Source: Rhizobium etli 8C-3 (lineage in GTDB: Bacteria > Pseudomonadota > Alphaproteobacteria > Rhizobiales > Rhizobiaceae). From it: a stretch of DNA of 64,000 bases. A program made the position numbers and the translations under genes. Below the pieces are notes generated by a model. That model was given only the letters and a program-made list of their open reading frames with translations. It was not told the origin of the DNA and searched no databases. Positions 3,595-35,676 of this stretch are shown here, piece after piece. Location: NCBI RefSeq assembly GCF_001908375.1, contig NZ_CP017241.1, positions 2,235,001 to 2,299,000 on the forward strand, written 5' to 3'. The first letter of the stretch is position 1, and each line of letters begins with the position of its first letter.

Positions 3595-3598
3595 CTAA

Positions 3599-4008: not shown

Positions 4009-4238
4009 CGGCTTGTTTTAGAGAAGAACCGAGGCCTGTCAGTCGGCGAGCACAGATCGTACGGGGCCTCGGTCCGAATCCCGTGACTTCGGCCCGCAAT
4101 TACCGGCGTTTTCCGGCCATTGTCGACCTGATGCAAACCTTTGTTGTCTCCAGCGCAATTCACAGAGCGCTTGCGTCGGAAACGAGATCGTCGAAGCACT
4201 TAATCTTCAACCTGGATGGGAAGCATTTGAGCCGTTGC

Positions 4239-4565
4239 CTAGGCTGCCGGTGGACGATACTGAATCGACTTGGCCTTTCCCAAGGCTTCAATCGTATCCT
4301 CGACGCTGAGGAGGACAGTGGTCTCGATAGAGCTGAGCGCGCCTCCTGCGCCGATAGCAAGTGCGACGGCTGCCATCGATGCGTTATCAGGCGCCTCCCA
4401 GAGATTCCAACCATCATGCTCGCCAAAGGCATACCAGAACCCATGGAGTTTTCCGCCCACGGATTCAATGTAAGTACGTGCCGCCTCTCGGCGATCCTCG
4501 GGGTTTTCAATCATGCGCGCCCACGTCTCGGGCGTGTAGCTGAAGCGCGTGAGATACATGGCCAT
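4239..4565 (-). CDS. GYD-domain protein
   Basis: A 108-residue small cytoplasmic protein whose sequence (YLTRFSYTPETWARMIENPE, the FGEHDGWNLWEAPD region and the alternating VALAIGAGGALSSIETTVLL) matches the GYD family, a ferredoxin-like dimeric alpha/beta-barrel fold. No catalytic residues are known for the family. It stands alone between the SDR/HxlR locus and an IS remnant. An in-frame second ATG lies at 4559. The function is unknown. Confidence 0.8.
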   Translation of the reverse strand: MAMYLTRFSYTPETWARMIENPEDRREAARTYIESVGGKLHGFWYAFGEHDGWNLWEAPDNASMAAVALAIGAGGALSSIETTVLLSVEDTIEALGKAKSIQYRPPAA

Positions 4566-9054: not shown

Positions 9055-11061
9055 ATGACCGACGCAAAATCTCATCCGAACTCGGTCGACGGCACCAAGC
9101 CGAACGGTGCCGAGACGTCGCGCCAGGATAAGGCATCGACTGTCGAGGTCGCGCCGCCCCCGAATGTCATCGAACCCGATACAGACTTGACGCCTGAGGA
9201 TGCCGAGCAGGCGCGCAAGAGGTATTTGCTAAGGCGTTTCTGGATCAGCGCGCGCGGTTACTGGGGCCGCAGCGGCGACAGACTCGCTTGGCCGTGCTCA
9301 ATCGCGCTGTTGACCCTGATCGGCATCAATGTCGGCTTCCAGTATGGAATCAATGTCTGGAATCGCGCAATCTTTGACGCCATAGAGCAACACGATGCCC
9401 GCACAGTCTATTTTCTGAGCGCCGTATTCCTGCCACTGGTGCTCGGGACCATAGCCCTTGTCGTTGCACAGGTCTCCCTTCGGATGACGATTCAGCGCCG
9501 CTGGCGTTGCTGGCTCACGACCGCAGTCATCGCGCGCTGGCTCGCAAACGGCCGCTATTATCAGTTGAATCTCATCGGCGGCGACCACAAGAATCCCGAA
9601 GCGCGGATCGCCGAAGATTTGCGGATTGCCACTGAATCCCCCGTCGATTTCATCGCGGGTGTCATTTCCGCATTTCTGTCGGCCTCGACCTTCATCGTGG
9701 TGCTTTGGACGATCGGCGGGTCCCTCACTCTGACAATCGCGGGTTCGACTTTCAGTGTTCCTGGCTTCCTTGTCATCACCGCGGTTCTCTACGCCGCCAT
9801 CACGTCGAGCTCGATGGCGGTCATCGGCCGCCATTTCGTCCAGGTCTCTGAGGTCAAAAATCAGGCGGAAGCCGAATTCCGCTATACACTGACGCATGTG
9901 CGGGAAAACGGCGAGAGTATTGCATTGCTCGGCGGTGAAGAGGAGGAACGCAACGACGTCGAGAAGACGTTCGCCAAGGTGCTCAGGCAATGGGCGCTTC
10001 TTGCTCGTCAACACATGCGCACGGCGCTTGTGTCGCAGGGCTCGAGCCTGTTTGCCCCAGTCGTGCCGGTTTTGCTTTGTGCTCCGAAGTTTCTCGAAGG
10101 CAGCATGACCCTCGGACAGGTGATGCAGGCTGCCTCTGCCTTTGCCATCGTTCAAAGCGCGTTCGGATGGCTGGTCGACAACTATCCTCGACTCGCCGAT
10201 TGGAATGCCTGTGCGCGCCGCATCGCTTCGCTGATGATGTCGCTAGACGGGCTCGAGCGCGCAGAACAGAGCAATGCCCTGGGACGCATCAGGCAAGGTG
10301 AGACGGAAGGCGATACGATGCTCAGCCTAAACGATCTTTCCGTGTCGCTTGACGATGGCACCGCCGTTGTCAAGGAAACCCAGGTCGTTATCGAACCAGG
10401 CGAGCGAGTGCTCGTAGCCGGAGAATCCGGTTCAGGCAAGAGCACGCTCGTACGTGCCATCGCAGGTCTTTGGCCGTGGGGTGAGGGAAGCGTCAACTTC
10501 CACGCCGACAGACGACTATTCATGTTGCCGCAGCGGCCTTATATTCCTTCCGGCACGCTTCGCCGTGCAGTCGCCTATCCTCGCGCCGCAGATAGCTGGA
10601 CGCCGGATAAGATCAAGGCAGCGCTCGACAAGGTGGGGCTCGATTACCTGAACGACAAGATCGAGGACGACGCGCCATGGGACCAGACTTTGTCGGGCGG
10701 CGAAAAGCAGCGACTCGCGTTTGCGCGTCTCCTGCTACACACTCCCGATATCATCGTCCTGGATGAGGCAACCTCAGCACTCGATGAGAAGAGCCAGGAC
10801 AAGATGATGGAGATGTTGATCCATGAGTTGCCGAAGGTAACCATCATAAGCGTAGCGCATCGGGCTGAGCTGGAGGCCTTCCATAGCCGCAAGATCACAT
10901 TGGAGCGGCGCGAGGGCGGTGCAAAGCTTGTCAGTGATATCGATCTTGTCCAGCGCAAGAGAAAGCGGAATTTGCTTCTGCGCCTTTTGGAGGACCGGCG
11001 CTTTCCAGCAAGCGGGCGCACTGCCTCGACTGACGCGGCGCTGTCCCAGAAAAAAAACTGA
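9055..11061 (+). CDS. SbmA/BacA-like ABC transporter with fused ATPase (BclA/YddA type)
   Basis: A 668-residue inner-membrane half-transporter. After a hydrophilic N-terminus (about 60 residues), an SbmA/BacA-type membrane domain spans roughly 75-390, containing NPEARIAEDLR and the family's REN and GGE.EE segments. The ABC ATPase follows, with Walker A GESGSGKS near 456-463, signature LSGGEKQR and Walker B IIVLDEATSALD. The family moves peptides, vitamin B12-like compounds or long-chain fatty acids. Bradyrhizobium BclA, with the same fused layout, imports host antimicrobial peptides. The ATG at 9055 was preferred over an in-frame GTG at 9049; neither has a strong ribosome site. It stands alone. 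Confidence 0.9.
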   Translation: MTDAKSHPNSVDGTKPNGAETSRQDKASTVEVAPPPNVIEPDTDLTPEDAEQARKRYLLRRFWISARGYWGRSGDRLAWPCSIALLTLIGINVGFQYGINVWNRAIFDAIEQHDARTVYFLSAVFLPLVLGTIALVVAQVSLRMTIQRRWRCWLTTAVIARWLANGRYYQLNLIGGDHKNPEARIAEDLRIATESPVDFIAGVISAFLSASTFIVVLWTIGGSLTLTIAGSTFSVPGFLVITAVLYAAITSSSMAVIGRHFVQVSEVKNQAEAEFRYTLTHVRENGESIALLGGEEEERNDVEKTFAKVLRQWALLARQHMRTALVSQGSSLFAPVVPVLLCAPKFLEGSMTLGQVMQAASAFAIVQSAFGWLVDNYPRLADWNACARRIASLMMSLDGLERAEQSNALGRIRQGETEGDTMLSLNDLSVSLDDGTAVVKETQVVIEPGERVLVAGESGSGKSTLVRAIAGLWPWGEGSVNFHADRRLFMLPQRPYIPSGTLRRAVAYPRAADSWTPDKIKAALDKVGLDYLNDKIEDDAPWDQTLSGGEKQRLAFARLLLHTPDIIVLDEATSALDEKSQDKMMEMLIHELPKVTIISVAHRAELEAFHSRKITLERREGGAKLVSDIDLVQRKRKRNLLLRLLEDRRFPASGRTASTDAALSQKKN

Positions 11062-23121: not shown

Positions 23122-24168
23122 TCAGGCGCTCAGCGCCTCCTTGGCACCGGGAAAATCCACCGCCGCAAAGGCCGCTGCGATCACCTCCGGCCCGGCGCCT
23201 GCCTTTGCCGCATCGCTCGACAGAATCTGTCGGTAGCGCCTGGCGCCTGGCAGACCGGTGAACAGCCCGACCATGTGCCGCGCCACATGTTGCAGGCGCC
23301 CGCCGCTTTCGAGATGCCGCGCGGCATAGGCCATCATGCGGTCGCGCAGCCCGTCCCAATCCGGCTCTGCCGCCGGTGCGCCGAAGAAGCGGTGATCGAG
23401 ATCGGCAAGGATCCCCGCATTCTGATAGGCCGCCCGACCCAGCATCACGCCGTCGACATGCTTCAGATGCGCCGCTGCTTCGTCCAACGTCAGGATGCCG
23501 CCGTTGATACCGATAAAGACCTCCGGCCACCGCTCCTTCATGCGATAGACGATGTCGTAGTCGAGCGGCGGGATCTCGCGGTTCTCCTTCGGACTCAGCC
23601 CTTTGAGCCAAGCCTTTCGTGCGTGGATCCACACCGCATCGGCACCTGCGTCCAGCACCCGCGCCAACAGTTCCGGCAGTGCCTCTTCCGGCTCCTGCTC
23701 GTCCACGCCGATCCGGCACTTTACCGTGACCGGTACATTGGAGACTGCCTTCATGGCCATAACGCAATTCGCCACCACCTTAGGCGTCAGCATCAGGCAG
23801 GCCCCGAAGGTTCCCGACTGCACCCGGTCCGAAGGACAGCCGACATTGAGATTGACCTCGTCGTAGCCGTAGGGCCCTGCGATCCGAAGCGCCTCGGCAA
23901 GTTTCACCGGATCCGATCCGCCGAGCTGCAGCGCCACCGGATGCTCGTCGCCATCAAACGACAGCAGCCTCTCGCGCGGCCCGTGAATGATCGCGTCCGC
24001 CACGACCATTTCAGTATAGAGCAATGCGTTCCGGCTGATCTGCCGGTGGAAATACCGGCAATGGCGGTCGGTCCAGTCGATCATAGGGGCGACCGCGAAA
24101 ATCGAAAGCCCTGATCTCCGGGCTTTTGCGTAGAAATTCAATTTGTTATGGCCGTTTGCTTGTGTCAC
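23122..24168 (-). CDS. dusA: tRNA-dihydrouridine(20/20a) synthase DusA, N-terminus supplied by an inserted element
   Basis: An FMN/NADPH-dependent enzyme reducing U20/U20a of tRNA. Features are AVAPMIDWTDRHCRYFHRQI, NVGCPSDRV near 109-116, the catalytic Cys124 in FGACLM, CRIGVDEQEP, WIHARKAWLKGLSPKENREI and GINGGI. At 348 residues it has normal length. The first 20 or so residues (MTQANGHNKLNFYAKARRSG) lie outside the conserved domain, and a GTG at 24168 starts translation. They derive from the integrated element, since the att-type core at 24071-24084 is inside the codons for MIDWT. Expression now depends on sequence brought by island 1. Confidence 0.95.
   Translation of the reverse strand: MTQANGHNKLNFYAKARRSGLSIFAVAPMIDWTDRHCRYFHRQISRNALLYTEMVVADAIIHGPRERLLSFDGDEHPVALQLGGSDPVKLAEALRIAGPYGYDEVNLNVGCPSDRVQSGTFGACLMLTPKVVANCVMAMKAVSNVPVTVKCRIGVDEQEPEEALPELLARVLDAGADAVWIHARKAWLKGLSPKENREIPPLDYDIVYRMKERWPEVFIGINGGILTLDEAAAHLKHVDGVMLGRAAYQNAGILADLDHRFFGAPAAEPDWDGLRDRMMAYAARHLESGGRLQHVARHMVGLFTGLPGARRYRQILSSDAAKAGAGPEVIAAAFAAVDFPGAKEALSA
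24071..24084. other. Attachment-site core, dusA/island 1 junction (attL)
   Basis: GTCCAGTCGATCAT, within codons for MIDWT of dusA, recurs exactly at 35266-35279 and 48029-48042. Similarity continues for about 15 further bases (GG.GCGAC.GCGAA). dusA is a known integration target of tyrosine recombinases. Confidence 0.85.
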
Positions 24169-24213
24169 GTTTTGTCAGTCTTTTTCAGCCTGTTGCACCA
24201 TTTTTCAGGGCGA

Positions 24214-24253
24214 GGTACAACATTGTCGTACTTCAACGGAGCAATGTTGTACC
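24214..24253. promoter_or_regulatory. 12-bp inverted repeat just upstream of the integrase
   Basis: GGTACAACATTG (24214-24225) and CAATGTTGTACC (24242-24253) are perfect inverted copies with a 16-base spacer, ending 3 bases before the integrase ATG. GGTACAACAT recurs at 35223-35232 near the other end of the island. It may be an integrase arm site, an operator, or a stem that hides the start codon. Confidence 0.5.
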
Positions 24254-24256
24254 GCA

Positions 24257-25354
24257 ATGGGAACCATCAACGCACGCAAGCGCAAAGACGGCACGGTCGG
24301 ATATACCGCACAAATCCTACGCAAGAAAGGCGGCGAGATCGTTTGGCGAGAGGCTAAGACCTTCGGCAGGAAGCGCGAGGCAGAAGCATGGATCCGCTGG
24401 CGCGAAGCGGAACTCGACAAGCCAGGCGCCATTGAGCAATTATCCAAGAGCGATTCCACGCTTGCCGACGCGATCGACAATTACGTGGATGCGAAAAGGA
24501 CGATTGGTCGGACGAAGGCGCAATGCCTGCGCAGCATCAAGACCTACGCTATAGCATCTAAAGACAGCCGCACCATCCGCAGCGTCGATATCGTTTCGTT
24601 CGCGGATGAGCTTCTGGCTGGCGGCCGAAAGCCTCAGACCGTCGCGAATTACATCAGCCACCTTGCCGCCGTCTTTCGCGATGCAAAGGCGGCATGGGAT
24701 ATCGACCTTGACTACGGCGAAATGCAAGCGGCCCAGCGAACCCTCATGCGCCTTGAGAAGACTTCCAAGTCGGAAGAGCGCACGCGCCGCCCTACCCTCG
24801 CCGAGCTCGACAAGTTGATGGAGCATTTCACCGATCGGCAGGTACGCGCGCCACACAGCGCCCCAATGTGCAAGCTTATCGCGTTCGCCATCTTCTCGAC
24901 GCGGCGGCAGGAGGAAATATCGCGCATCCTTTGGGATGACCTTGACGAGCCGCACAGCCGCATCTTGGTTCGCGACATGAAACATCCCGGACAAAAGCGC
25001 GGCAATCATACGTGGTGCGAACTGACGCCCGAGGCAATGGCCATCGTTAAATCGATGCCGCGGACCAAACCGGAGATCTTCCCGTACACCGGAGACGCCA
25101 TGTCCGCAGCCTTCACGCGGGCTTGCCAGTTCCTTGGCATTAACAAGGAAGATACACCAGAGGCGGATCGCCTTGTTTTCCATGACCTGCGGCACGAGGG
25201 TATTTCGCGCCTGTTTGAAATGGGCAGGACTATCCCGCTCGCCGCAAGCGTGTCAGGCCACCGCTCTTGGAACTCCCTGAAACGCTACGCGCAGATCAAG
25301 GAAGTCGGCGACAAGTTTGCTGGCTGGAAGTGGCTCGATGTCGTGACGAAGTAG
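24257..25354 (+). CDS. Tyrosine recombinase/integrase of island 1
   Basis: A 365-residue phage-type integrase. The N-terminus (MGTINARKRKDGTVGYTAQI) is the arm-binding AP2-like domain. A SAM-like core-binding domain spans about 65-165. The catalytic domain contains Arg at 216/217 (STRRQEEISRILWDDL), HDLRHE (His309, Arg312), His335 in SGHRS and Tyr344 in LKRYAQI. All catalytic residues are present, so it should be active. It starts right beside the dusA junction, as expected for a dusA-specific integrase. A related but gutted copy lies at 35461-35676. Confidence 0.93.
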   Translation: MGTINARKRKDGTVGYTAQILRKKGGEIVWREAKTFGRKREAEAWIRWREAELDKPGAIEQLSKSDSTLADAIDNYVDAKRTIGRTKAQCLRSIKTYAIASKDSRTIRSVDIVSFADELLAGGRKPQTVANYISHLAAVFRDAKAAWDIDLDYGEMQAAQRTLMRLEKTSKSEERTRRPTLAELDKLMEHFTDRQVRAPHSAPMCKLIAFAIFSTRRQEEISRILWDDLDEPHSRILVRDMKHPGQKRGNHTWCELTPEAMAIVKSMPRTKPEIFPYTGDAMSAAFTRACQFLGINKEDTPEADRLVFHDLRHEGISRLFEMGRTIPLAASVSGHRSWNSLKRYAQIKEVGDKFAGWKWLDVVTK

Positions 25355-25382
25355 GAGACGAGAGGAAAAAATCTGACAAAGC

Positions 25383-25411
25383 TTGACAGCGGCACGTGTT
25401 GCCGCTATATT
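25383..25411 (+). promoter_or_regulatory. Sigma70-type promoter with operator-like palindrome in the spacer
   Basis: TTGACA (25383-25388) and TATATT (25406-25411) are 17 bases apart. The spacer is itself GCGGCA-CGTGT-TGCCGC, a perfect 6-bp inverted repeat. A repressor bound there would block RNA polymerase. It drives the excisionase/replication operon starting at 25486. Confidence 0.68.
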
Positions 25412-25485
25412 CCCCTGTTATGCGCATAAACGCTCTGCGCTTATTTTAATTTCACTGTCAACTTTATACAGGGTGTAAACAGATC

Positions 25486-25710
25486 ATGTCAAGCGAAAAA
25501 TTCAAGACGAATGAAGCAGCCGCATACATCGGCAAGTCGGCATCGTGGCTTAATAAAACCCGCATGACCGGCATCGGGCCAGTCTACATGAAAATCGGCG
25601 GCGGCGTGGTCTACGCCAAATCCGATCTTGACGCGTTCCTAGCCGGAGCGCGACGCACCGCAGTCTACGCGCACGCAAACGACAACAAGCGTGCGGCAAC
25701 GGCGGCATAA
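25486..25710 (+). CDS. AlpA/excisionase-like helix-turn-helix protein
   Basis: A 74-residue protein with a MerR/AlpA-type winged helix: FKTNEAAAYIGKSASWLNKT, then GPVYMKIGGGVVYAKSDLDA with the typical Tyr-x-x-x-Asp-Leu wing. In satellites AlpA-like proteins activate or act as excisionase; in prophages they assist excision. It is first in the operon downstream of the promoter at 25383-25411. It is likely to be the switch or directionality factor for island 1. Confidence 0.8.
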   Translation: MSSEKFKTNEAAAYIGKSASWLNKTRMTGIGPVYMKIGGGVVYAKSDLDAFLAGARRTAVYAHANDNKRAATAA

Positions 25711-25730
25711 ACCCCACCACAGGAGACGAT

Positions 25731-25982
25731 ATGGAGATTCACAACCTCCGGCCAGCAGCCGGAAGGAACGAGCGCGCCATCTTTGACGTGCAGATCGGGC
25801 CGCACCTACGGCTCTACAGCCTCACCCTGAAAGAAGGCCCCGACGGCAGGTTGCGCACGTTCGCACCGAAAGCCTTCGGCAAGCATGCTGCATCGTTCCA
25901 CCCGGAACTTGCCCAGCAAATCACCAATGCCGCAGTAGCGGCCATGAACGGCGGAGCAGCCAGTGACCGTAGCGCAGCGTAA
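25731..25982 (+). CDS. Small conserved element protein, unknown function
   Basis: An 83-residue protein (MEIHNLRPAAGRNERAIFDV...) 20 bases after the AlpA-like gene, with GGAGACG before its ATG. It overlaps the next gene by 20 bases. The short beta-rich N-terminal half and the FAPKAFGKHAASFHPELAQQ segment have no family I can name. The overlap with the ATPase suggests a role in replication or regulation of the element. Confidence 0.65.
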   Translation: MEIHNLRPAAGRNERAIFDVQIGPHLRLYSLTLKEGPDGRLRTFAPKAFGKHAASFHPELAQQITNAAVAAMNGGAASDRSAA

Positions 25983-27651
25983 GAAATTCATCCTCAATGG
26001 CCATGCCGCCGCCGACGACTTCGATGCCGTCGCCTCGGTGTATTACGGAATTTATGACCGCCTCACCGACTGGGGGCACGCCACTGCAAACGTCGTCGTC
26101 GCCCCTGCCAAGGAAGACGGCCAGCCCGATTGGGACCGCGCCGGCCCGACGAACCTAGAGAAGCCATCCAGCGATAGCGGGCCAGCCGACATGGCTGAAG
26201 CAAGCCGCTTGGCAATCCTAGTTGACGAAATCGATGGCTGCGACTCCGCAACCTCTCTGCTGCTATGGCTTGATCCCGAAACGGGCAATCCCAACATGGG
26301 GCAGATCGCCGGCCCGGAAGCTGACGGCGACATTGCCATGCGCATCATCGGCCGTGACATCGGCGCCGCACCACCGGCGAAGGAATACAAGCCAGGACCT
26401 CTTTCGGCGAGCCTTCTGAAGCTCGCGGAAAAGATCAGCCCTCCGCCTGCCGCCAACGACAACGAACCCCAGATCGACAAGCGGCTGATAGCTTTTGGCG
26501 ACGCGTACGGCGGCCAGATTATCGGCAATACGCTGTTCAGCGCCAAGGTCGACGGCGCGCTGGGTCAAATCGTCTTCTCGGCTGACGGCAACGCGTGGTT
26601 CCACACATCCAAGGGAGCTCGCCGGATTGGCCTTCCTGAGAAGCCAAAAGACCGCTTCGCCGTCGACTGGTTTGGCGATCTGGAAGAAGACATGCCGAAA
26701 GAGACGATCGTTAAAGGCGTCTTCGGAGTCAACGAATTCACCATGCTCTCTGGCAAGCCAGGATCAGGCAAGTCCGTCATCACCACAGACCTGGCTTGCC
26801 ACGTTGCGGCCGGCATGGAGTGGCATGGCAGGAAGGTCAAGCAAGGGCTTGTCGTCTATGTAGCCGCCGAGCGGCGCGCGCTTACCAAGCGGCGCATGAT
26901 GGCTTTCCGCAAGCATCATGGCATCGGCACGATACCGCTAGCCGTGATTGGCGGCAGGCTGGACATGACGAGCTCGGTTGCCGACGCTGAAGCCCTTGCC
27001 GCGTCAATCCGCCAGTTGGAGGAAGACTGCGGCCACAAGTGTGTGTGGATTGTCATCGACACCTTGACGCGCGTTTTCGGCCCCGGCGATCAGAACGCCA
27101 CGAAGGACATGGGCAAATTCGTCCTATCGTGCGACGCACTTCGTGAGGCTGTGCCGGATTCCCACGTCACCGTTATCCACCACACCGGATGGGCTGGCGA
27201 CCGCGGCAAGGGTGCGATCGATCTGGACGGCGCGGTGGACGCTTCCTTCCTTGTGAAGAAAGAGGCCGCCGGCTACATCCTTGAGTGCGACGGCGCGAAC
27301 GATGGCGACGAGGGTGTGATTGCGCACTTCCGTATGGAAGGCGTCCAGGTGGGTGTTGACGCTGACGGCGAGCCGACGATGGCGCCTGTGGTTGTGCCTG
27401 GCGCGGGTGAAGGCCCCGCCGAGAAGCTGCTTAGCGGGCCAAAACGAAAGGCGATCCATGCGCTTGCTGAGCTTTCGGTGGACGGCGAGCCGGTGCCTAT
27501 GGCCCTCTGGCGTGCCAAGTGCCGAGAGCTATTCGATAATGGTGGCGGCAAGTCACAAGACGCACTCAACAAGCAGTTCGAGCGAGCCAAGCGGTCACTG
27601 CTGGACGAGGGTCTAGTCCAGCAAGTGGACGCTGGGTTTTTGCCATCGTGA
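25963..27651 (+). CDS. Replication-type AAA ATPase (RepA/AAA_25-like)
   Basis: A 562-residue protein. The N-terminal 160 residues have a DUF-type/primase-like look (VASVYYGIYDRLTDWGHATA; no clear catalytic motif). A RecA-type ATPase follows: Walker A GKPGSGKS at 264-271, VVYVAAERR, Walker B WIVIDTLTRVFG, VTVIHHTGWAGDRGKGAIDL and DASFLVKKE. A C-terminal winged-helix-like region is LSGPKRKAIHALAELS to the end. This matches RepA-like hexameric helicases of plasmids and phage satellites. The start is a GTG (25963) with GGAG upstream. It would replicate the excised island. Confidence 0.82.
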   Translation: MTVAQRKKFILNGHAAADDFDAVASVYYGIYDRLTDWGHATANVVVAPAKEDGQPDWDRAGPTNLEKPSSDSGPADMAEASRLAILVDEIDGCDSATSLLLWLDPETGNPNMGQIAGPEADGDIAMRIIGRDIGAAPPAKEYKPGPLSASLLKLAEKISPPPAANDNEPQIDKRLIAFGDAYGGQIIGNTLFSAKVDGALGQIVFSADGNAWFHTSKGARRIGLPEKPKDRFAVDWFGDLEEDMPKETIVKGVFGVNEFTMLSGKPGSGKSVITTDLACHVAAGMEWHGRKVKQGLVVYVAAERRALTKRRMMAFRKHHGIGTIPLAVIGGRLDMTSSVADAEALAASIRQLEEDCGHKCVWIVIDTLTRVFGPGDQNATKDMGKFVLSCDALREAVPDSHVTVIHHTGWAGDRGKGAIDLDGAVDASFLVKKEAAGYILECDGANDGDEGVIAHFRMEGVQVGVDADGEPTMAPVVVPGAGEGPAEKLLSGPKRKAIHALAELSVDGEPVPMALWRAKCRELFDNGGGKSQDALNKQFERAKRSLLDEGLVQQVDAGFLPS

Positions 27652-27720
27652 TCCCCATGGACGGTGAGCGTCCATCATGGATGTCCATGCCGTCCATCTA
27701 TCAACCACGACACCTTCTCG

Positions 27721-27768
27721 CATGGATGGACATGGACACACCCCTTTAGGGGTGTCCGTCCGTCCATG
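27721..27768. promoter_or_regulatory. Long imperfect hairpin between ATPase and HNH genes
   Basis: CATGGATGGACATGGACACA continues into CCCCT, then a TTA loop, then AGGGGTGTCC and GTCCGTCCATG. Nearly all of it pairs, with small bulges. The surrounding 27655-27790 repeats CCATGGA/TGGACATG words. It may terminate the early operon or be a protein-binding array. Confidence 0.5.
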
Positions 27769-27799
27769 CAGAGAGTCCATAAAAAAGAGAATCTGACCA

Positions 27800-28258
27800 A
27801 TGGCTAAATGGCCATACTCAACAGCAGCTTGGCAGCGTTTGCGTGCTGCTAAGCTCTCTATCCAGCCGTTGTGCGAAGTCTGCATTCGGCGGGAAGTCGT
27901 AGAGCCTGCCACCGTCGTTGACCACGTCGTCGCTATCAATGCGGGCGGCGATCCGTTCCCTCCCCTCGATGGTCTCATGTCCATGTGCACTGAGTGCCAC
28001 AACATCAAGACCAACGCCAAGGACCATCCGAATGCAACGGGCTTCCGTCGCGCTCTGAAGGGCTACGACGTGGACGGCAACCCAATCGACGTCGAAGGCT
28101 GGGAACGCACCAGCGAGGCGCTGGGTGGCGATGCAGAGCCGGCGGCCTTCGGATCACGGCGATCGACGGGCCAAGGACCGGCGCGGGAGACGCGCAAAGA
28201 CTTAGTTTCATGCGACTCATTCGCAACTAGCGAAAAGGAGGGCGACCTATGGGTTTAA
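27800..28258 (+). CDS. HNH endonuclease of a phage packaging module
   Basis: A 152-residue protein with the phage HNH pattern: MAKWPYSTAAWQRLRAAKLS, CEVCIRR, VDHVVAINAGGDP and MCTECHNIKT. The two CxxC pairs (zinc) and the DH/H residues are intact. Such HNH proteins are encoded next to terminase in HK97-like phages and are needed for specific cos cleavage. It overlaps the terminase start by 10 bases, so they are translationally coupled. Confidence 0.87.
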   Translation: MAKWPYSTAAWQRLRAAKLSIQPLCEVCIRREVVEPATVVDHVVAINAGGDPFPPLDGLMSMCTECHNIKTNAKDHPNATGFRRALKGYDVDGNPIDVEGWERTSEALGGDAEPAAFGSRRSTGQGPARETRKDLVSCDSFATSEKEGDLWV

Positions 28259-29895
28259 GAGGCCCCGGCGCAAAGCCCAAATCTGCCAAGGTCGCTGCCA
28301 ACGACAATCTGCGCGAGGAGCTCCCATGGGAGGCTGAAGGGCTGACACGGATAGAGCGCGTAGTCGCGTTCTGCGAGGACATGCCAGTCACCCAGGGCAA
28401 GCTTGCCGGAACAAAGCTGAAGCTGCGCGAATGGCAAATCGAGGAGTTCCTCGAGCCCGTTTACGCAGAAGATGACGACGGCAAGCGGCAGGTTCGGACT
28501 GCCGTGTTCTCGATGGGCAGAAAGAACGGAAAAACCGGCATTTCGGCGGCGTTGGCGCTTTGCCACCTCGTGGGACCGGAGGCAGAAGAGCGCGGCGAAA
28601 TCTATTTTTGCGCAATGGACAAGGCGCAGGCGGCGAAGGCATGGGCGGAGTGCAAAGCCATGTTGGAAGCCCATCCGGAGCTTTCGCAGCGCGTCAATAT
28701 CATCCGGTTCTCGAAAGAGATTGAAGTGCTCGACGGCGCCGGCAAAGGCTCGGTCCTCAAAGCCTTGTCAGCCGACGCTGATAGCAAACTTGGCCTGTCG
28801 CCCTCATTCGTTCTGTGTGACGAGATCGGGTACTGGCCGAAGCGCGATCTATTCGACGCGATGGACTCCGCCCTCGGCGCGCGTGACGAGCCGCTAATCG
28901 TGGCCATCAGCACGCAAGCCAAGGACGACACGCATTTCTTCTCGGAAATGATTGACTACGGCTTGAAGATCAAGACCGGCGAAGTCGAGGACGAATCCTT
29001 CCACCTCGCCATGTTCGCGGCTGGCCCGAATGACGATCCGTGGGATCCAGCTACATGGGAGAAGGCTAACCCGGCGCTCGGCGACTTCCTGTCATATGAG
29101 CAAGTCGAGCGCCAGGCGATGCAGGCGCAGCGCATCCCGTCGAAGGAAGCGGATTTTCGGAACAAAGTCCTCAATCAGCGGGTAGACGGCACGGTGCGCT
29201 TTATCGCGGCCAGAGAATGGAACGACTGCGATCTTGGCCCCATCGACGACAAAGAACTGGAAGGGCGCGAATGCTTCGGGGCGTTGGATTTGAGCGCGGC
29301 ACGCGATCTTACAGCATTTGTGCTCGTGTTTCCCGAAGAGGATGGCCGCTACACGGTCCTGCCGCGGTTCTTCCTTCCCGAGTTCGATATTGACGGCAAG
29401 AGCGATACCGACCGCGTGCCGTACAACGTCTGGGCGAAACAGGCGGACGCGCGCCTGACCCTGCTTCCCGGCAAGGTCATCGATCCGGCGCTCGTAGCCG
29501 AATACATCGCCGACGAGGCGGCCCGCTTCGATATCAAGGAGATCGCCTTCGATCGTTGGCGGATCGAGGACTTGAAGCGCGAGCTCGAAAAGCTATCCGT
29601 CGAGTTGCCGCTTGTGCCGTTCGGCCAGGGCTACAAGGATATGTCGCCAGCCGTGGACGTTCTGGAGGTCACAGTGGCCCAGCAGAAGCTAAACCACGCC
29701 GGCAACCCCCTGATGCGCATGTGCGCCGCCAACGCTGTCGTCACGAAAGACCCGGCTGGCGCGCGCAAGCTTGACAAGTCTAAGGCGAGTGGGCGCATAG
29801 ATGGTATCGTCGCGCTTGCAATGGGCTTGAAAATCGCACAGGGCCACGAGGAAGAAACAATGCCAGGCTGCTTGCTGGCCATGCTGGCGGCATAA
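28249..29895 (+). CDS. Phage terminase large subunit
   Basis: A 548-residue packaging motor. The ATPase part has the variant Walker A MGRKNGKT, FCAMDKAQAAKAWAE, and Walker B FVLCDEIGYW. The nuclease part has FGALDLSAARDLTAFVLVF, IAFDRWRIEDLKREL and SGRIDGIVALAMGL, carrying the metal-binding Asp residues. It begins MGLRGPGAKPKSAK, a basic start seen in P27-type terminases. No separate small subunit was found next to it. It cuts and pumps DNA into the prohead formed by the downstream genes. Confidence 0.93.
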   Translation: MGLRGPGAKPKSAKVAANDNLREELPWEAEGLTRIERVVAFCEDMPVTQGKLAGTKLKLREWQIEEFLEPVYAEDDDGKRQVRTAVFSMGRKNGKTGISAALALCHLVGPEAEERGEIYFCAMDKAQAAKAWAECKAMLEAHPELSQRVNIIRFSKEIEVLDGAGKGSVLKALSADADSKLGLSPSFVLCDEIGYWPKRDLFDAMDSALGARDEPLIVAISTQAKDDTHFFSEMIDYGLKIKTGEVEDESFHLAMFAAGPNDDPWDPATWEKANPALGDFLSYEQVERQAMQAQRIPSKEADFRNKVLNQRVDGTVRFIAAREWNDCDLGPIDDKELEGRECFGALDLSAARDLTAFVLVFPEEDGRYTVLPRFFLPEFDIDGKSDTDRVPYNVWAKQADARLTLLPGKVIDPALVAEYIADEAARFDIKEIAFDRWRIEDLKRELEKLSVELPLVPFGQGYKDMSPAVDVLEVTVAQQKLNHAGNPLMRMCAANAVVTKDPAGARKLDKSKASGRIDGIVALAMGLKIAQGHEEETMPGCLLAMLAA

Positions 29896-29908
29896 CTAGG
29901 AGATTGGA

Positions 29909-30121
29909 ATGGCACAGGGATTAGCGATAACGCGCGGGCAGTTGGCCATGATGAGGGGCAAGGCTGCCGACGCTGTTAAGGACCAGAACGACAAGGAAGC
30001 GTTGGCGGAGGTTATACGCCTGCATATTGCAATACAGGCGATCGATGCCGTTCTCGTCGAGCGAGGCGCTGGCAATCAGGAGTCGCCTTGGAACGATCCC
30101 ACCTTTCGGCTCAACCGCTGA
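29909..30121 (+). CDS. Small helical protein after terminase, unknown
   Basis: A 70-residue protein (MAQGLAITRGQLAMMRGKAA...) starting 13 bases after the terminase stop with GGAGATTGGA upstream. It is predicted mostly helical (KDQNDKEALAEVIRLHIAIQ, AIDAVLVERG). It is too short and unlike known small terminases to call it one, but its place makes a packaging accessory role plausible. Confidence 0.55.
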   Translation: MAQGLAITRGQLAMMRGKAADAVKDQNDKEALAEVIRLHIAIQAIDAVLVERGAGNQESPWNDPTFRLNR

Positions 30122-30820
30122 TCTATTGCCAATCAGCAACACCTTGCCGCTATCCATTGGCGGCGGGGTAAGTTTTTTCGCCGGAAATGTCGGCTTTCCG
30201 GGTTTTCGTGGTGAGTATAGTAGAGGGGTGCGAAACGAGTACGGACTCAAACGGTGCGCCGAGCGGTTAGTATGAGAGGCGAGAGCGGTCCCTTTCCGCG
30301 TTTTCGGCGGGTGTATAGGTGAGCCAGTATATACTCAAACGCCCCTAGCTTCCTAATAAGTGGGAAGCATGCTTCGACCGGCCCGAAGTTTGTAATAAGG
30401 GGGGAACGTCTCCCACGCGCACTCAAGTCCCCAAGGGGTGAGGCATACCTGAAACAGTGCGCCGAGCGGTAGGAGTGGAAGGTATACCTCAAACCGCCTC
30501 AGAATGACTAGGGATGAGAGAGGCACTTTTGGCATTTCGTCCCCCTTTATAGTGAGAGGTCATGACCTGATTGCCCTGGAAGTGACTAGGGATAGCAGGA
30601 ACGCATGCGCTGATTAGCGCGCGGATGACTAGAAGTAGATAGACAATTTCGATTTCAGGCGGCTATCTCCCTTGGGGCTTGGCCAGTCCTTAAAGCATGC
30701 ATCGCTGCCGCCACCTGTAAGGGACATGGGCGGTGCAGGCACGGCAAGTCGTTGGAGTTGTGACCCCGCGCAAATTGCAACGGATCTGCCGATCCATTGC
30801 TGCCCTTGATTGGGCATAGC
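30122..30820. repeat. Gene-free region with dispersed direct repeats inside the satellite
   Basis: About 700 bases with stop codons in all frames and recurring words. GTGCGCCGAGCGGT occurs near 30248 and 30457; CTCAAAC or CTGAAAC preceded by TA.AC occurs near 30245, 30331, 30447 and 30490; TGACTAGGGAT occurs near 30506 and 30582, with TGACTAGAAGT near 30626. It lies between terminase and capsid genes, where coding density is otherwise high. It could be a packaging (cos/pac) site, an origin or a regulatory RNA region. Confidence 0.55.
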
Positions 30821-30853
30821 GGGAGGCGGGCTTCGGCCCGCTTCCCCTTTTTT
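30821..30853 (+). terminator. Intrinsic terminator before the capsid operon
   Basis: GGGAGGCGGGC and GCCCGCTTCCC form a stem capped by a TTCG tetraloop, then a T-run at 30848-30853. It separates the terminase transcription unit (with the repeat region) from the MerR-like/capsid unit. Confidence 0.85.
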
Positions 30854-30893
30854 ATCCAACATAGAATCCTACAACTGATGAAAGGAAACGGCG

Positions 30894-31325
30894 ATGGCCG
30901 ACCCTTGGCGCGAGCGCGCCTATTCCGTCGGCGAGGCCGCAACCCTTGCCGGCATACGACGCAGCACCCTCGACGTCTGGTGCATCAGGCAACCCCATGA
31001 GCTTTTTAGCGAAAAGCGCGGGCACCGCCGCTGGTTTAGTCCCAAGGACATCGCAGTGCTGCGGATGGCCCATGAGCTGGAGCGCGGGGGCATGGTCCTT
31101 CTAACCGCGATCGCGTGCGCCTACGAGCACATGCAGGAGCCGCCAGCCGCGGACGCAGTTTTCGTTATCCCAGCCGGCAAGCTATCGCCTCGGTCAGGCT
31201 GGTTCATCAGCGACCGCGACGTGCCCCGGCTCGCCATCGACAAATCGATCATTCTCATTCCCATCGGCCAGTTGGTCGCCGGGATAATCGCGGCCTGCGC
31301 AGAGCTTCGCTCACGCGCCGCATAA
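30894..31325 (+). CDS. MerR-like DNA-binding protein of island 1
   Basis: A 143-residue protein with an N-terminal MerR-type winged helix (RAYSVGEAATLAGIRRSTLD, HRRWFSPKDIAVLRMAHELE). A 70-residue C-terminal part has no metal-binding Cys. An AAGGAAACGGCG ribosome site precedes the ATG. It is placed directly upstream of the capsid gene after a strong terminator, so it may control late expression. Small-terminase function (DNA recognition by an HTH) is a second possibility, given that no TerS is otherwise seen. Confidence 0.65.
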   Translation: MADPWRERAYSVGEAATLAGIRRSTLDVWCIRQPHELFSEKRGHRRWFSPKDIAVLRMAHELERGGMVLLTAIACAYEHMQEPPAADAVFVIPAGKLSPRSGWFISDRDVPRLAIDKSIILIPIGQLVAGIIAACAELRSRAA

Positions 31326-31411
31326 GCAAGCGGGACCATGGCCCGCATCATCGCGGCTACGGCCGCACAACGGGCGCCTGAAGGGCGCCTTTTCCATATG
31401 GAGAAACTACT

Positions 31412-32566
31412 TTGAACATTGCACACCTGCAGGAAAACCGCGCCTCTAAGATCGCTGAGCTGCGCAAGGTAACGGACAACCCGGAACGCTTTGACGCTCT
31501 GGAAGCTGAAGTCCGCGCGCTCGACAAGGATATCCGCCGCGCCGCAACGCTCGCCGAATTTGAGCGCCAGGCTGAGGCCAAGCCGGATGCACGGCTCGAA
31601 AACGAGATCCGCGATTATTCCGTCGCAAAGGCTATCCGCGAGTCCGTCGCTGGCAATCTGACTGGCCGCGAAGCTGAAGTTTCGGCAGAGCTCGGCAAGG
31701 GTCGCGAAGTCCGCGGCGTTATGGTCCCTACTTCGGCAATCTTCGGCGAACAGCGCGCCATGCTCACCACCGGCTCGGCTGGTAACACGGTTGCGACCGC
31801 GATGGGTGGTCTGATCGACCGCCTGCGTCCCGTCCTTGCCGTGCAGGGCATGGGCGCCACGATCATTAGCGGCCTGACTGGCAACCTCGACCTGCCGCGC
31901 CTGACGGCTGGCCCGACTGCCTACTGGGTGGCTGAAGACGGCGCGCCGACTGCTTCGGATTCGACCTTCGACAAGGTTTCTCTGGCGCCGAAGACCGTTG
32001 CCGGCGAGATGTACCTTTCCCGCCGCCTGACGCTGCAGAATGGCGTTGCGCTGGAAAACGTACTCCGCAATGACCTTGCGTTCATTCTCGCTCAGGCGCT
32101 CGACAAGGCGGCTATCCAGGGTGGCGGCACGAATGAGCCGGATGGGATTCTTTCTGTGATAACCGAGAATGTGACGGCAGCGACGGCGCTTTCCGACATT
32201 GCGGCTGACCTAATTGCCGCGCTGGAAATCGACGACGTGACCGGCACGACGGGCTTCCTCACCAATGCCGCCCTCATGGGTGCGGTTCGCAAGGTCAAGG
32301 ACACGACGGGCCGCGTCATTCCGGCGTCGGAAATCTTCCACGGCGAGCGCGTCGTTTCGAGCAACAACGTTCCGGTTGTTGCAGCTGAAAACCCGCTGAT
32401 CTTCGGAGCCTGGTCGAATCTGGTCCTCGGCATGTGGAGCGGCGTTGACATTCTTGCCAACCCGTACAGCGACGCCAGCAAGGGCGGCCTGCGCCTGCAC
32501 GCGTTCCTCGATGCGGATATCGCGATCCGCCATACCGAGGCGTTCTCTTACAAGAACGTCGCCTAA
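31412..32566 (+). CDS. HK97-family major capsid protein
   Basis: A 384-residue capsid precursor. The N-terminal 60 or so residues form a charged coiled coil (RASKIAELRKVTDNPERFDA, LEAEVRALDKDIRRAATLAE), the delta/scaffold domain removed by the protease. The HK97 fold follows, with GNTVATAMGGLIDRLRPVLA, GPTAYWVAEDGAPTASDSTF, TVAGEMYLSRRLTLQNGVAL, IQGGGTNEPDGIL and RLHAFLDADIAIRHTEAFSY. The TTG start (31412) is preceded by ATGGAGAAA; no alternative ATG fits. Its stop overlaps the next ATG. Confidence 0.93.
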   Translation: MNIAHLQENRASKIAELRKVTDNPERFDALEAEVRALDKDIRRAATLAEFERQAEAKPDARLENEIRDYSVAKAIRESVAGNLTGREAEVSAELGKGREVRGVMVPTSAIFGEQRAMLTTGSAGNTVATAMGGLIDRLRPVLAVQGMGATIISGLTGNLDLPRLTAGPTAYWVAEDGAPTASDSTFDKVSLAPKTVAGEMYLSRRLTLQNGVALENVLRNDLAFILAQALDKAAIQGGGTNEPDGILSVITENVTAATALSDIAADLIAALEIDDVTGTTGFLTNAALMGAVRKVKDTTGRVIPASEIFHGERVVSSNNVPVVAAENPLIFGAWSNLVLGMWSGVDILANPYSDASKGGLRLHAFLDADIAIRHTEAFSYKNVA

Positions 32567-32844
32567 TGGAGGCCGTCACCCTCGCTGAAGCGAAGGCGCA
32601 CTTGCGCATCGGATTCACGTCCGATGACGCCTATGTGACTTCGCTCCTAGAGGCGGCCGAGGGGTACGTGTCGGAGATCGGGGTGGCGCTTGCCGCCCCG
32701 GTTCCCGCGCCCGTTAAGCACGCCATCCTCTTGCTTGTGTCGCACTGGTATTCCGCGCGCGAAGCTGCGGCGACCGAACCGCCACGCGCCATTGCATTCG
32801 GTGTAGACGCCCTTCTCCAGCCCTTTAGGGAGCAATCACTGTGA
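32566..32844 (+). CDS. Head-tail connector protein (gp6-like)
   Basis: A 92-residue protein: MEAVTLAEAKAHLRI, DDAYVTSLLEAAEGYVSEIG and the HAILLLVSHWYSAREAA helix are typical of the HK97 gp6/phage_connect_1 family that makes the ring below the portal. It overlaps the capsid stop by one base and the protease start by four. Full length for the family. Confidence 0.87.
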   Translation: MEAVTLAEAKAHLRIGFTSDDAYVTSLLEAAEGYVSEIGVALAAPVPAPVKHAILLLVSHWYSAREAAATEPPRAIAFGVDALLQPFREQSL

Positions 32845-33383
32845 TTGAGAAACGTATCGCGACTGAGGTTCGCGCCGAAGGCCGAAAGCTGACCGGGTAC
32901 GCGGCGACGTTCGGCACAGAAACCCGGATCCTCGACTTTAACGAGACGATCGCCCCCGGCGCCTTCGCGGCCAGTCTGCGCGGCCAGCCCGACATTCTGG
33001 CGTTGGTCGATCACGACACTGGCAAGGTGTTGGCAAGGACGGCTAGCGGGACGTTGCAGCTCTCCGAAGACGCGCGCGGACTCAAGTTCTCGATAGACGT
33101 TCCGGATACAAGCCTTGGCCGCGATATCCTCGCCATGGCGGCCCGTTCCGACCTAGGCGGAATGTCGTTTGGCTTCACCGTCCCTGAAGGCGGAGACGAG
33201 TGGCGCGGCGATAAGCGCACGCTCCGCAACGTTGTGCTCCACGAAATTAGCGTCGTGCAGAGCTTCCCCGCGTACGGCGGCACGTCCATTCAGGCACGAG
33301 CTCGCCAGCAGCGCACCGATACCGACCGTCGGCTAGCAATCCTAGAACTGGAGGCTTCCCATGTGGCCATTCCGCAAAACTGA
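32841..33383 (+). CDS. HK97-family prohead protease
   Basis: A 180-residue S78 serine protease: IATEVRAEGRKLTGYAATFG, DFNETIAPGAFAASL, LVDHDTGKVLART (catalytic His58), GGMSFGFTVPEGGDEW (catalytic Ser109) and VVLHEISVVQSFPAYGGTSI. It processes the capsid delta domain during prohead maturation. The GTG start overlaps the connector stop; the end overlaps the portal start by 23 bases. In most HK97-like modules it precedes the capsid; here it follows it. Confidence 0.93.
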   Translation: MIEKRIATEVRAEGRKLTGYAATFGTETRILDFNETIAPGAFAASLRGQPDILALVDHDTGKVLARTASGTLQLSEDARGLKFSIDVPDTSLGRDILAMAARSDLGGMSFGFTVPEGGDEWRGDKRTLRNVVLHEISVVQSFPAYGGTSIQARARQQRTDTDRRLAILELEASHVAIPQN

Positions 33384-34563
33384 AACGCGCATCGCTACTA
33401 GCGACCCGTTCCTCGGCGAGTTCCTTGGCGCGCGCTGGCAGGCTAGCGCTGACATTGAGAAGGCAAGCGGCCACGCTGTCGCACACCGCTGCATCAGCGT
33501 CATCGCCGAAAACCTCGCAAGCGTGCCGCTGAAGGTCTACAAGAGGACCGAAGATGGCGGACGGGAAGCCGCAACAGAGCATCCGCTCTATGGCGTGCTG
33601 CACGACGAGACCGCGCCAGGGCTTACCGCCTTCGAGGCTCGAGAGTGGTTGCTTGCGTCTGCGCTTACCCAGGGCAATGCCTATGCTCGTATCGATCGCA
33701 ACGGCCGTGGCCAGGTAACGGCACTGCATCCCCTCGTAGCCGGCACGGTCACGGTCGAAGTGCTCAAGTCTGGCCGTCTGCGCTATAAGCACGCCCTGCC
33801 CGACGGCGGCACCGAAACGCTGCTGCAAGACGAGGTGCTGCACATCCGCTATCGGACCAAGGACGGCATTCTCGGCATGTCGCCCATCCAGATTGCAGCG
33901 GCTGCTTTCGGCCTTGCATTGGCGCAGCAGGACCAAGCCGGCGCTGCCGCGGAGAATGCGTTCCGTCCTGCCGGCGCGCTCGTGTTTCCCGACAAGATCG
34001 GCGGGGCCGGCAAGGAGTCCGTGACTGCGAAGTTCAAGGAACGCTTCGTCGGCGCGCTCAAGGCCAACGAGGTAATGATCCTCGACGGCGGAGCGAAGTT
34101 TGAGACCTTCAGCTTTAACAGCAAGGACTCCGAGTTTCTGGATTCGCGCAAGCTGTCTAACCTCGACATCTGCCGCGTCTTCGGCGTGCCGCCTAGCGTA
34201 GCCGGCATCACCGACGATGCGACCTACAGCAACATCGGCGAGGAATCCCGCGCCCTCGTCATGCGGTGCCTGGCACCATGGGCCAAGCGCGTCGAGATGG
34301 CCATGAATATCGCTCTCCTGTCGCCAGAGGCGCGCAAGACGCTCTTTATTGAGCACGACCTAAACGCGCTTACCAGAGGCGATCTGTCGACCCGCTATGC
34401 GGCTTACCGCATGGCGCGTGAGGGCGGCTGGCTTTCCGCAAACGATATTCGCGGATACGAGAACATGAGCAGGATCGAAGGCGGCGATGAATATATCCAG
34501 CCGTTGAACATGGGCTTGCTCGGCGCGAACGACAATCGCTCAAAGCTGGATGATGCAGCATGA
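33361..34563 (+). CDS. Phage portal protein, HK97 type
   Basis: A 400-residue portal forming the dodecameric DNA gate. Typical features are GHAVAHRCISVIAENLASVP, HPLYGVLHDETAPGLTAFEA, ALTQGNAYARIDRNGRGQVT, LHIRYRTKDGILGMSPI, FRPAGALVFPDK and FGVPPSVAGI, and YSNIGEESRALVMRCLAPWA. Full length. It overlaps the head-closure gene by four bases (ATGA). It sits downstream of capsid and protease, the reverse of the usual portal-protease-capsid order. Confidence 0.93.
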   Translation: MWPFRKTETRIATSDPFLGEFLGARWQASADIEKASGHAVAHRCISVIAENLASVPLKVYKRTEDGGREAATEHPLYGVLHDETAPGLTAFEAREWLLASALTQGNAYARIDRNGRGQVTALHPLVAGTVTVEVLKSGRLRYKHALPDGGTETLLQDEVLHIRYRTKDGILGMSPIQIAAAAFGLALAQQDQAGAAAENAFRPAGALVFPDKIGGAGKESVTAKFKERFVGALKANEVMILDGGAKFETFSFNSKDSEFLDSRKLSNLDICRVFGVPPSVAGITDDATYSNIGEESRALVMRCLAPWAKRVEMAMNIALLSPEARKTLFIEHDLNALTRGDLSTRYAAYRMAREGGWLSANDIRGYENMSRIEGGDEYIQPLNMGLLGANDNRSKLDDAA

Positions 34564-34898
34564 CCGGCGCTGGTGATCTGCGGGAAGTCGTCAATTTCCA
34601 GTTTTACGAGGAAATTGATGACGGCTACGGAAATGTGTACGGCGACTGGGTAACGGTCTTTTCCGCCCATGCCCGAATCCAGATCCTTCGCGGCACGGAA
34701 ACGGTTATGGCGGGCCGCCTTGCCGGCAAGCAAACCGTTGCGCTGACAATCCGCTGGCAAACCGAAGTCGCCACCATGCACAGCGGCTTTCGGGCCGTTA
34801 ACGCGCGCAGCGGCGAAGTCTACAACGTCAAAAGCGTTGAACCAGACGAGCGGCGGGCGTTCGTCAACATTCTAGTCGAGTCGGGCGTGGCGACATAA
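34560..34898 (+). CDS. Phage head closure / head-tail adaptor protein
   Basis: A 112-residue beta-barrel adaptor: MTGAGDLREVVNFQFYEEID, DGYGNVYGDWVTVFSAHARI, RLAGKQTVALTIRWQTEVAT and EVYNVKSVEPDERRAFVNIL match the SPP1 gp16/HK97 gp7-like family. It closes the filled head and offers the docking surface for a tail. No tail genes follow, so the tail would have to come from a helper phage. Confidence 0.88.
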   Translation: MTGAGDLREVVNFQFYEEIDDGYGNVYGDWVTVFSAHARIQILRGTETVMAGRLAGKQTVALTIRWQTEVATMHSGFRAVNARSGEVYNVKSVEPDERRAFVNILVESGVAT

Positions 34899-34999
34899 AC
34901 GCGGGCCGCCTCGTGCGGCCTGCACAACCTTGACGATCTGCCTATTTCGTGCAATACGAGCGTGCCCCAACAATAACAACAATAAAGGGAGGCCACGCT

Positions 35000-35206
35000 A
35001 TGAAGCTCGCCGTTGCGCGCGAAATCAAATCCATTGCAGCCGAAGCCGGCGCGGACAGTTGGAAGCTGATCCGCGAAGGGAAGCACCTGATAATTGACTT
35101 CCGATTCGCTGAGAAGACCGTGCGGCAGGTGCTGGCCGCTACGCCTTCCGGGCCGCGAGCACGACGCAACGAAGTGGCGTGGTTACGACGGCAGGTTGCC
35201 GCTTGA
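35000..35206 (+). CDS. Small conserved satellite/phage protein, possibly HicA-like
   Basis: A 68-residue basic protein starting at an ATG with GGGAGG at ideal spacing. WKLIREGKHLIIDFRFAEKT and RARRNEVAWLRRQVA suggest a small alpha-beta fold like HicA-type double-stranded RNA-binding proteins. However, the catalytic His context (GxxH) is only partly present. No HicB partner is nearby. It ends 60 bases before the right att core, a typical place for accessory cargo of satellites. Confidence 0.55.
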   Translation: MKLAVAREIKSIAAEAGADSWKLIREGKHLIIDFRFAEKTVRQVLAATPSGPRARRNEVAWLRRQVAA

Positions 35207-35258
35207 GTGCGGTACGACGCGCGGTACAACATGGCCCGCTGCACCGCCTGATTCTAGG

Positions 35259-35369
35259 CTAATTCGTCCAGTCGATCATCGGCGCGACGGCGAAGACGGG
35301 AGCTTTGAAGTAGTTGCCTTTTTCTTTTTTTTCAGGCGCTTGCAACAGTTTTTTCTCCGTCTTGTTCAC
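35259..35369 (-). pseudogene. Displaced dusA 5' end belonging to island 2
   Basis: From a GTG at 35369 the minus strand reads MNKTEKKLLQAPEKKEK, then GNYFKAPVFAVAPMIDWTN and stop (36 codons). FAVAPMIDWT is the same conserved start as the intact DusA. This was the functional dusA start before, or without, island 1; it is now cut off from the gene body 11 kb away. Confidence 0.72.
35266..35279. other. Attachment-site core between the two islands
   Basis: GTCCAGTCGATCAT, identical to 24071-24084 and 48029-48042, with CGGCGCGACGGCGAAG following. It is the right end of island 1 and the left end of island 2. GGTACGAC and GGTACAACAT (35211, 35223) beside it may be arm-type sites of the integrase. 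Confidence 0.82.
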
Positions 35370-35460
35370 GCTTGTTTTATGCCAAATCCGCCGATTTCGA
35401 CGCCGGACTTGGCACAATGCACCAACTGGAATCGCCATGTACCAAATGAGGATGCGGTCA

Positions 35461-35676
35461 TGGGAACTATCACCGCGCGAAAGCGAAAAGATGGTAGCGT
35501 CGGCTACGGGGCACGCGTGCGCGTTATGCGGGATGGCCTCACTTATCATGAGACAGAGACTTTTGATAGGCGGCCGGAGGCAATGGGTCCGCCTCAAGCG
35601 TTACACGCATCTTCGCGAAACCGGCGACAACTATGCTAGCTGGGGCGGCCCCCAGTCGGCGGTCGAGACCAGATAG
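35461..35676 (+). pseudogene. Integrase remnant with internal deletion
   Basis: The 5' part reads MGTITARKRKDGSVGYGARV, parallel to the start of the island 1 integrase. After about 40 codons the sequence jumps, near 35582, to WVRLKRYTHLRETGDNYASW in another frame. This is the C-terminal tail with the catalytic Tyr (compare LKRYAQIKEVGDKFAGW). Roughly 300 central codons, including Arg and His catalytic residues, are gone. Confidence 0.85.

Follow-up and report, generated by a model that had tools for sequence, protein, structure and literature searches.

An 11-kb island in dusA of Rhizobium etli 8C-3 that is probably a capsid-forming phage satellite

The window analysed here is a 64,000-nucleotide stretch of the Rhizobium etli 8C-3 genome (NZ_CP017241.1, positions 2,235,001 to 2,299,000), and it contains an intact island of 11.2 kb (24071-35294) that is integrated in dusA and carries a set of phage head and packaging genes. 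The island holds 14 co-oriented genes or small open reading frames (ORFs), all open in the ORF list, and is bounded by 29-nt imperfect repeats that are identical at 26 of 29 nt and spaced 11,195 nt apart. The attL-like copy (24071-24099) lies inside dusA (23122-24168, reverse strand; Dus domain, 6e-76) and the attR-like copy, found by repeat comparison, lies at 35266-35294; the 5' end of this dusA is supplied by the island, and islands of the dusA type are described as giving the gene a new 5' end (PMC4482086, in excerpt). When 20 dusA loci of the genus were compared, the window's included, the conserved part of the gene was found to begin at ATGATCGACTGGAC, which is the core of the repeat, and the 5' ends were found to vary. 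Insertion in dusA, as claimed in an earlier note made from the sequence, is borne out by this comparison and by the repeat inside the gene. dusA is present in 40 of 40 genomes sampled from the genus, that of 8C-3 included, and within the 20-locus set a related integrase or its remnants stand beside dusA at two loci (L122 and L131; L numbers denote loci) besides the window's own. A truncated second integrase of the same dusA type (35460-35639), matching the island integrase at 51%, lies just right of the island end, so the site has been occupied more than once; it is a trace of an earlier or tandem element at dusA.

Gene calls rest on Pfam and PHROGs profile searches of the island ORFs, and every island gene given below lies on the forward strand. 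At the left are a tyrosine integrase (24257-25354, scanned from 24260; PF00589, 3e-10; phrog_1) and an AlpA/excisionase-like helix-turn-helix protein (25486-25710), a call that is weak on profiles (HTH_17 at 26.7 bits, the cut-off being 27; phrog_66, 'excisionase and transcriptional regulator', 8e-4) and supported by position; this protein matches its counterpart in the related locus L047 at 80%. There follow a small protein beside alpA (25731-25982), which has no Pfam or PHROG match and has homologues in related elements by alignment, a helicase-like replication ATPase of the AAA_25 type (25963-27651; PF13481, 9e-31; phrog_906, DNA polymerase/primase, 3e-50), an HNH endonuclease (27800-28258; PF01844, 8e-6; phrog_2323) and the terminase large subunit TerL (28249-29895; PF20441, PF03354; phrog_9, 3e-141), for which the Pfam scores were 1e-37 for the nuclease and 1e-17 for the ATPase. 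After TerL come a small protein (29909-30121) that has no family match and is 37% to the protein in the same place in L034, and a MerR-type regulator with a CvkR-like fold (30894-31325), called from a profile search and a match of its structure model to CvkR. The head genes are those for an HK97-type major capsid protein (31412-32566; PF05065, 8e-37), an Ad1 head-tail connector (32566-32844; PF05135, 9e-12; phrog_40), an S78 prohead protease (32841-33383; PF04586, 1e-40), a portal protein (33361-34563; PF04860, 2e-94) and an Hc1 head closure/completion protein (34560-34898; PF05521, 3e-17; phrog_25). The last small protein (35000-35206, ORF listed from 34949; phrog_2053, 2e-4) is 71% to the L034 protein that lies between TerL and capsid. 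The genes that the earlier note had named as present and apparently intact are thus all found, open and co-oriented, and neither Pfam nor PHROGs recognised a tail or lysis gene among the island genes, as it had also stated. Its AlpA-like switch stands with the weak HTH_17 and phrog_66 matches, and its statement that there is no typical repressor needs correction, in that the MerR-type regulator is present besides AlpA. The idea that this MerR-type protein is a hidden small terminase was rejected, as its predicted model matches CvkR and other MerR regulators. A faint Foldseek match of the same protein to 6hlk, a packaging-redirection entry from a phage-inducible chromosomal island (PICI), with an E value of 0.08 and a TMq of 0.33, was not among the 50 rows of a second look and was not used.

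A capsid scan returned five loci in genome contigs (68-76% identity) and 44 in IMG/VR, 26 of the latter at 65-97% identity and 18 at no more than 36%. The close relatives comprise 31 loci (L032-L062), of which 22 are distinct and come from several genera; the remaining nine duplicate another locus (L038, L040, L043, L045, L046, L051, L053, L056 and L059). In L032-L062 the head genes follow one another as capsid, connector, protease, portal and head closure wherever at least two of these genes were matched (L062 has a partial capsid only), and TerL lies upstream of the head genes in the loci that reach so far, with the exceptions of L033, where an HNH match lies downstream, and L060. Some elements have the integrase at the left end, as the window element does, and others have it behind the head genes at the right end. 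A sister group with about 45-56% capsid identity has the same gene order where genes were matched. Within the host's family a capsid match at E<=1e-80 was found in 11 of 394 genomes, that of 8C-3 included, whereas the seven further genomes of the same genus listed in that set had none; this patchy presence fits a mobile element. Capsid homologues that are 98% identical are named Sinorhizobium meliloti. Portal matches are common across the order, occurring in 263 of 397 genomes at E<=1e-20, so only portal hits with at least 43% identity were followed. No exact terminal repeat of 10-200 nt and no closed excised form was found among the loci listed.

The element length is nearly constant. For 12 elements, sister elements excluded and with repeat pairs sought in chosen stretches around the expected ends, the flanking repeats span 11,195 (window), 11,165, 10,910, 11,135, 10,644, 11,011, 10,970, 11,232, 10,594, 11,217, 11,175 and 11,177 nt, a range of 10,594-11,232 nt with a mean of 11,035 and a coefficient of variation of 2%. 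The right-hand repeat lies at the 3' end of a tRNA gene in all eight of the 12 that were scanned (L032, L033, L034, L035, L036, L037, L099 and L101; tRNA-Arg five times, tRNA-Ser twice and tRNA-Lys once), while the window element, L047 and L048 sit in dusA, and L058 has a repeat word in common with L034. As the repeats coincide with tRNA 3' ends (8/8) or with dusA, we take the element ends to be sound, and the occurrence of relatives at tRNA-Arg, tRNA-Lys and tRNA-Ser means that the head module has been joined to several integrases. Insertion site and integrase vary and length stays nearly constant, whereas islands in dusA as a class run from 4,758 to 184,808 bp (PMC4482086, section 16, in excerpt). 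The simplest cause of such a near-fixed length would be a head of fixed size. Sister elements span 9,898, 10,791 and 11,005 nt, the last (L110) in tRNA-Arg, and the repeat pairs of the sister loci L103 and L112 have only 13-14 scoring pairs. The 26 viral contigs with at least 65% capsid identity are all 4.1-17.0 kb long, and the longest contigs of the best 120 of 399 capsid homologues peak at 11-12 kb, with 14 of the 47 contigs between 5 and 20 kb in that bin, the three next lower 1-kb bins holding 7, 7 and 4 and the next higher bin 1.

Directly behind the ATPase gene and before the HNH gene lies a candidate replication origin (27652-27799), in which GTCCAT/ATGGAC occurs eight times within 148 bp by hexamer count. 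Across the 64 kb, eight copies of any hexamer were reached in just 1 of 1726 windows of 148 bp, the candidate origin itself. A hexamer occurs at least five times in the gap between ATPase and HNH in 9 of the 11 elements in which this gap is 40-600 bp, L052 and L110 being the other two. A 7-mer scan, which omitted 12 loci (the nine duplicates, L054, L062 and L105), found at least six copies of a 7-mer in 150 bp in 12 of 35 loci, always at most about 0.45 kb upstream of HNH and past the replication ORF or within its final portion (the replication ORF of L111 is unassigned). Nine different words make up the 12 clusters, including CGTCACA, GGTAACA, AAAGTAG, AGGGACA and GGTGGAA. Clusters of 4-5 copies lie at the same junction in further elements, the window element among them by the 7-mer measure, although 4-5 copies occur elsewhere too. 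Most elements have such a cluster, each with a word of its own, where the replication gene ends and before HNH. In Gram-positive PICIs the origin directly follows the initiator gene on its 3' side (PMC6092414, in excerpt). The repeat cluster is most likely an iteron origin whose initiator has a specificity of its own, and the ATPase may be the protein that binds the repeats.

The island shares much with the capsid-forming PICIs (cf-PICIs) of the EcCIEDL933 type, which are described as having an integrase, AlpA, their own HNH protein and TerL, capsid, S78 protease, portal and connectors and no tail (PMC10690885 and PMC10448857, both in excerpt). In the island there are a capsid, head protease, portal and head-tail connectors, a large terminase with an HNH protein, an integrase with attachment sites and an AlpA homologue (weak match); the lack of recognisable tail and lysis genes holds for the window island only. 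It differs from cf-PICIs in the repeat cluster behind the AAA_25 ATPase and in the MerR-type regulator, in its size of about 11 kb compared with a cf-PICI average of 14 kb, and in its rhizobial host, rhizobia not being in the list of main cf-PICI hosts (PMC10803314, in excerpt, for both). The capsids of cf-PICIs form three clades (PMC11389934, in excerpt). Vibrio cf-PISP satellite-plasmids likewise have a PF05065 capsid and a head and packaging set without tails but are episomal, with parA/repA and no integrase in the part of the account used here (PMC13230959), whereas the island is integrated. The Streptomyces phage satellites MulchRoom and MiniFlayer also have their own head genes, and the MulchRoom tail is of helper length; they differ in their terminal repeats, virulent helpers and, according to the same excerpt, lack of a primase homologue (PMC10690885). 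With dusA-specific islands the island has in common the insertion in the 5' part of dusA, imperfect direct repeats, the integrase and the replaced dusA 5' end, but what defines that class is the insertion and the integrase, and its members vary widely in size and cargo (PMC4482086, in excerpt). We found no rhizobial cf-PICI in the literature searched, which was partly not aimed at rhizobia, and the surveys of Alqurainy (2023) and de Sousa (2023) may list some; the novelty of the family in rhizobia is provisional.

The island is likely to be a cf-PICI-like phage satellite that builds a head for about 11 kb of DNA and borrows tails. By its parts the family would work like a cf-PICI, and it is a candidate member of that class. 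We propose that the island is quiet while integrated in dusA and that, as in PICIs, growth of a tailed helper phage would switch on the AlpA-like protein and lead to excision. The AAA_25 protein would then start replication at the repeat cluster behind its own gene, and the island's HNH protein and TerL would cut the DNA and load unit lengths into a small head made from its own capsid, protease and portal proteins. Connector and head-closure protein would close this head, and a helper tail could dock on the island neck to give a particle with a genome of about 11 kb. The role of the small terminase may be taken by an unrecognised island protein or supplied by the helper.

Phage-type genes and a locus that does decay, as the truncated second integrase alongside indicates, could also be explained by a decayed prophage, the head genes being what remains of a normal phage whose tail, lysis and control genes were lost. 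We disfavour this and regard it as very unlikely. The layout is common to 22 distinct loci in several genera, with a common length where both ends are known, and the reading frames are open. Purifying selection acts on the head genes: in comparisons with as many as five relatives, dN/dS was 0.05-0.39 for TerL, HNH, the MerR-type regulator and the head genes (head and packaging genes all below 0.4) and 0.19-0.58 for the ATPase. No phage record has a capsid of at least 60% identity; the 75 with a capsid match are all below this value (highest 33.1% among 25 listed), as are the 1640 with a portal match (highest 38.2% among 20 listed), and capsids in plasmid records are below 60% as well (at most 34% among 15 listed of 29). 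In a capsid tree (n=56), from which 11 loci were left out (the nine duplicates, L054 and L062), the 23 family rows are set off by a 100/100 branch, and a 100/99 branch separates family and sister group together from 20 other capsids. The earlier note had read the island as a capsid-forming satellite and had named full-length prophages as closest kin, or broken packaging genes, as signs to the contrary; the nearest relatives in the searches were other islands of about 11 kb with their genes in the same order, and the packaging genes are all unbroken, which supports its reading. A gene-transfer-agent-like particle, moving DNA without tails or kept for another use, would account for a head kit without a tail, which is all that was recognised. 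However, the integrase, flanking repeats, origin-like repeats and patchy presence (11/394) mark a mobile element, and both neck proteins, the connector and the head-closure protein, are present, so that we think this alternative highly improbable. In phages these proteins lie between portal and tail.

The tail itself raises another possibility: unexpectedly, five related loci that are otherwise tail-less have a tail-tube gene placed between TerL and the capsid gene (L033, the element of Rhizobium herbae DSM 26427, 9225-9671; L035, 9277-9729; L049, 7854-8300; L050, 4207-4653; L052, 5488-5892), with PF06199 above cut-off in three of three tested and phrog_1407 in all five; the capsids of L049 and L050 are nearly the same. 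Tail-lessness therefore holds for the window element and not for every relative. The group could be one of head-building satellites that make part of a tail, in which some members reshape or partly build it and the window element may use a helper for all of it. No tail-tube gene was recognised in the window element, though, and no tape measure, terminator or tip family was found among 25 of 34 families listed for 100 non-core ORFs (99 of 114 preselected ORFs and one more, integrase-like and overlapping antisense ORFs being omitted by hand), and we consider this possibility unlikely. For a satellite that borrows its tails, these tail-tube genes are one of several points that count against our interpretation. 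Another is the match to a tail-fibre family of one ORF among 69 from the sister group (25 of 43 families listed). The earlier note's terminase holds for the large subunit, whereas no small subunit was recognised in the called genes, only a weak match of the HNH region to phrog_4581, and a divergent one is possible; Pfam also recognised no primase domain in the AAA_25 ATPase, so there is no clear Pri-Rep, and cf-PICIs have both a small terminase and Pri-Rep. The likeness to cf-PICIs was itself set by feature lists and not by sequences, TerL was not matched in L060, and many of the dS values lie above 1, near saturation, with one protease comparison saturated. The 20 other capsids in the tree are 18 low-identity viral contigs of the same scan, their nature unchecked, and two phages, which is no full phage sample. 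The repeat cluster of L032 lies 0.8 kb before HNH, L033 and L042 are without a cluster, and among the 12 sister loci a cluster at the junction was seen in L111 and L113 only. Contigs of unit length can also come from assembly breaks at end repeats, without excision, and the data hold no sign of excision, helper need or particles.

The earlier note proposed that a helper prophage be sought elsewhere in the genome, and the 7.3-Mb, four-contig host genome holds two candidate places. The only PF04860 portal and the only PF03354 terminase of this genome are both in the island, and a PF10145 search gave two places. One is a lambda-like prophage cluster on contig C1 at about 1411000-1431000 (L097 and L098), where the PF10145 match is below cut-off and the genes include a GpA-type terminase, lambda-type portal, S49 protease, capsid E, tape measure and tail tip. 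The other is a P2-like tail cluster on the same contig at about 3318000-3334000 (L095 and L096) with baseplate J, tail I, tail tube and a hub protein. Both clusters are possible tail donors, and the original host of a cf-PICI need not contain its helper (PMC11389934, in excerpt).

Perhaps, and we offer this tentatively, rhizobia and other Alphaproteobacteria host an independently arisen radiation of head-building satellites, with a size-locked replicon of about 11.0 kb, lineage-specific iterons, no small terminase of their own, several interchangeable integrases and insertion sites, and a branch with an acquired tail-tube gene that may tailor the borrowed tail. The proposed satellite would extend the range of head-building satellites to nitrogen-fixing symbionts and their relatives, and its family would provide a compact set of natural variants for comparing head size, genome length and replication specificity. 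The family's nearly constant length despite changing integrase, site and cargo makes the proposition that a small head sets genome size directly testable, and the tail-tube branch would provide an example of how a satellite begins to rebuild or retune a borrowed tail.

Several other features of the window and of the related elements were noted. A gene-poor stretch of 770 nt (30122-30893) with several short direct repeats ends in a terminator-like hairpin (30821-30846); terminator-like sites overall numbered 13, compared with 12.5 in shuffled sequence, and the interval between TerL and capsid differs among relatives. In L060 a sigma-factor-like ORF and a weak small-terminase match (3003-4487) lie before the capsid gene. 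The tRNA and Rfam scans of the window gave no matches, and within it the G+C content of the island is not distinct from its surroundings. Upstream of the AlpA-like gene lies a promoter-like site on the forward strand (25383-25411; TTGACA-17-TATATT, 11 of 12 consensus matches), one of six such sites, identified by consensus match only, compared with 3.3 in shuffles. Distant possible homologues of the small protein at 25731-25982 stand beside alpA in elements of the other layout. As for cargo, the sister-group scan, which took in the 69 of 153 region ORFs that lie within the judged element bounds, gave one PADLOC defence match (RTasDnaG-like, 1e-8).

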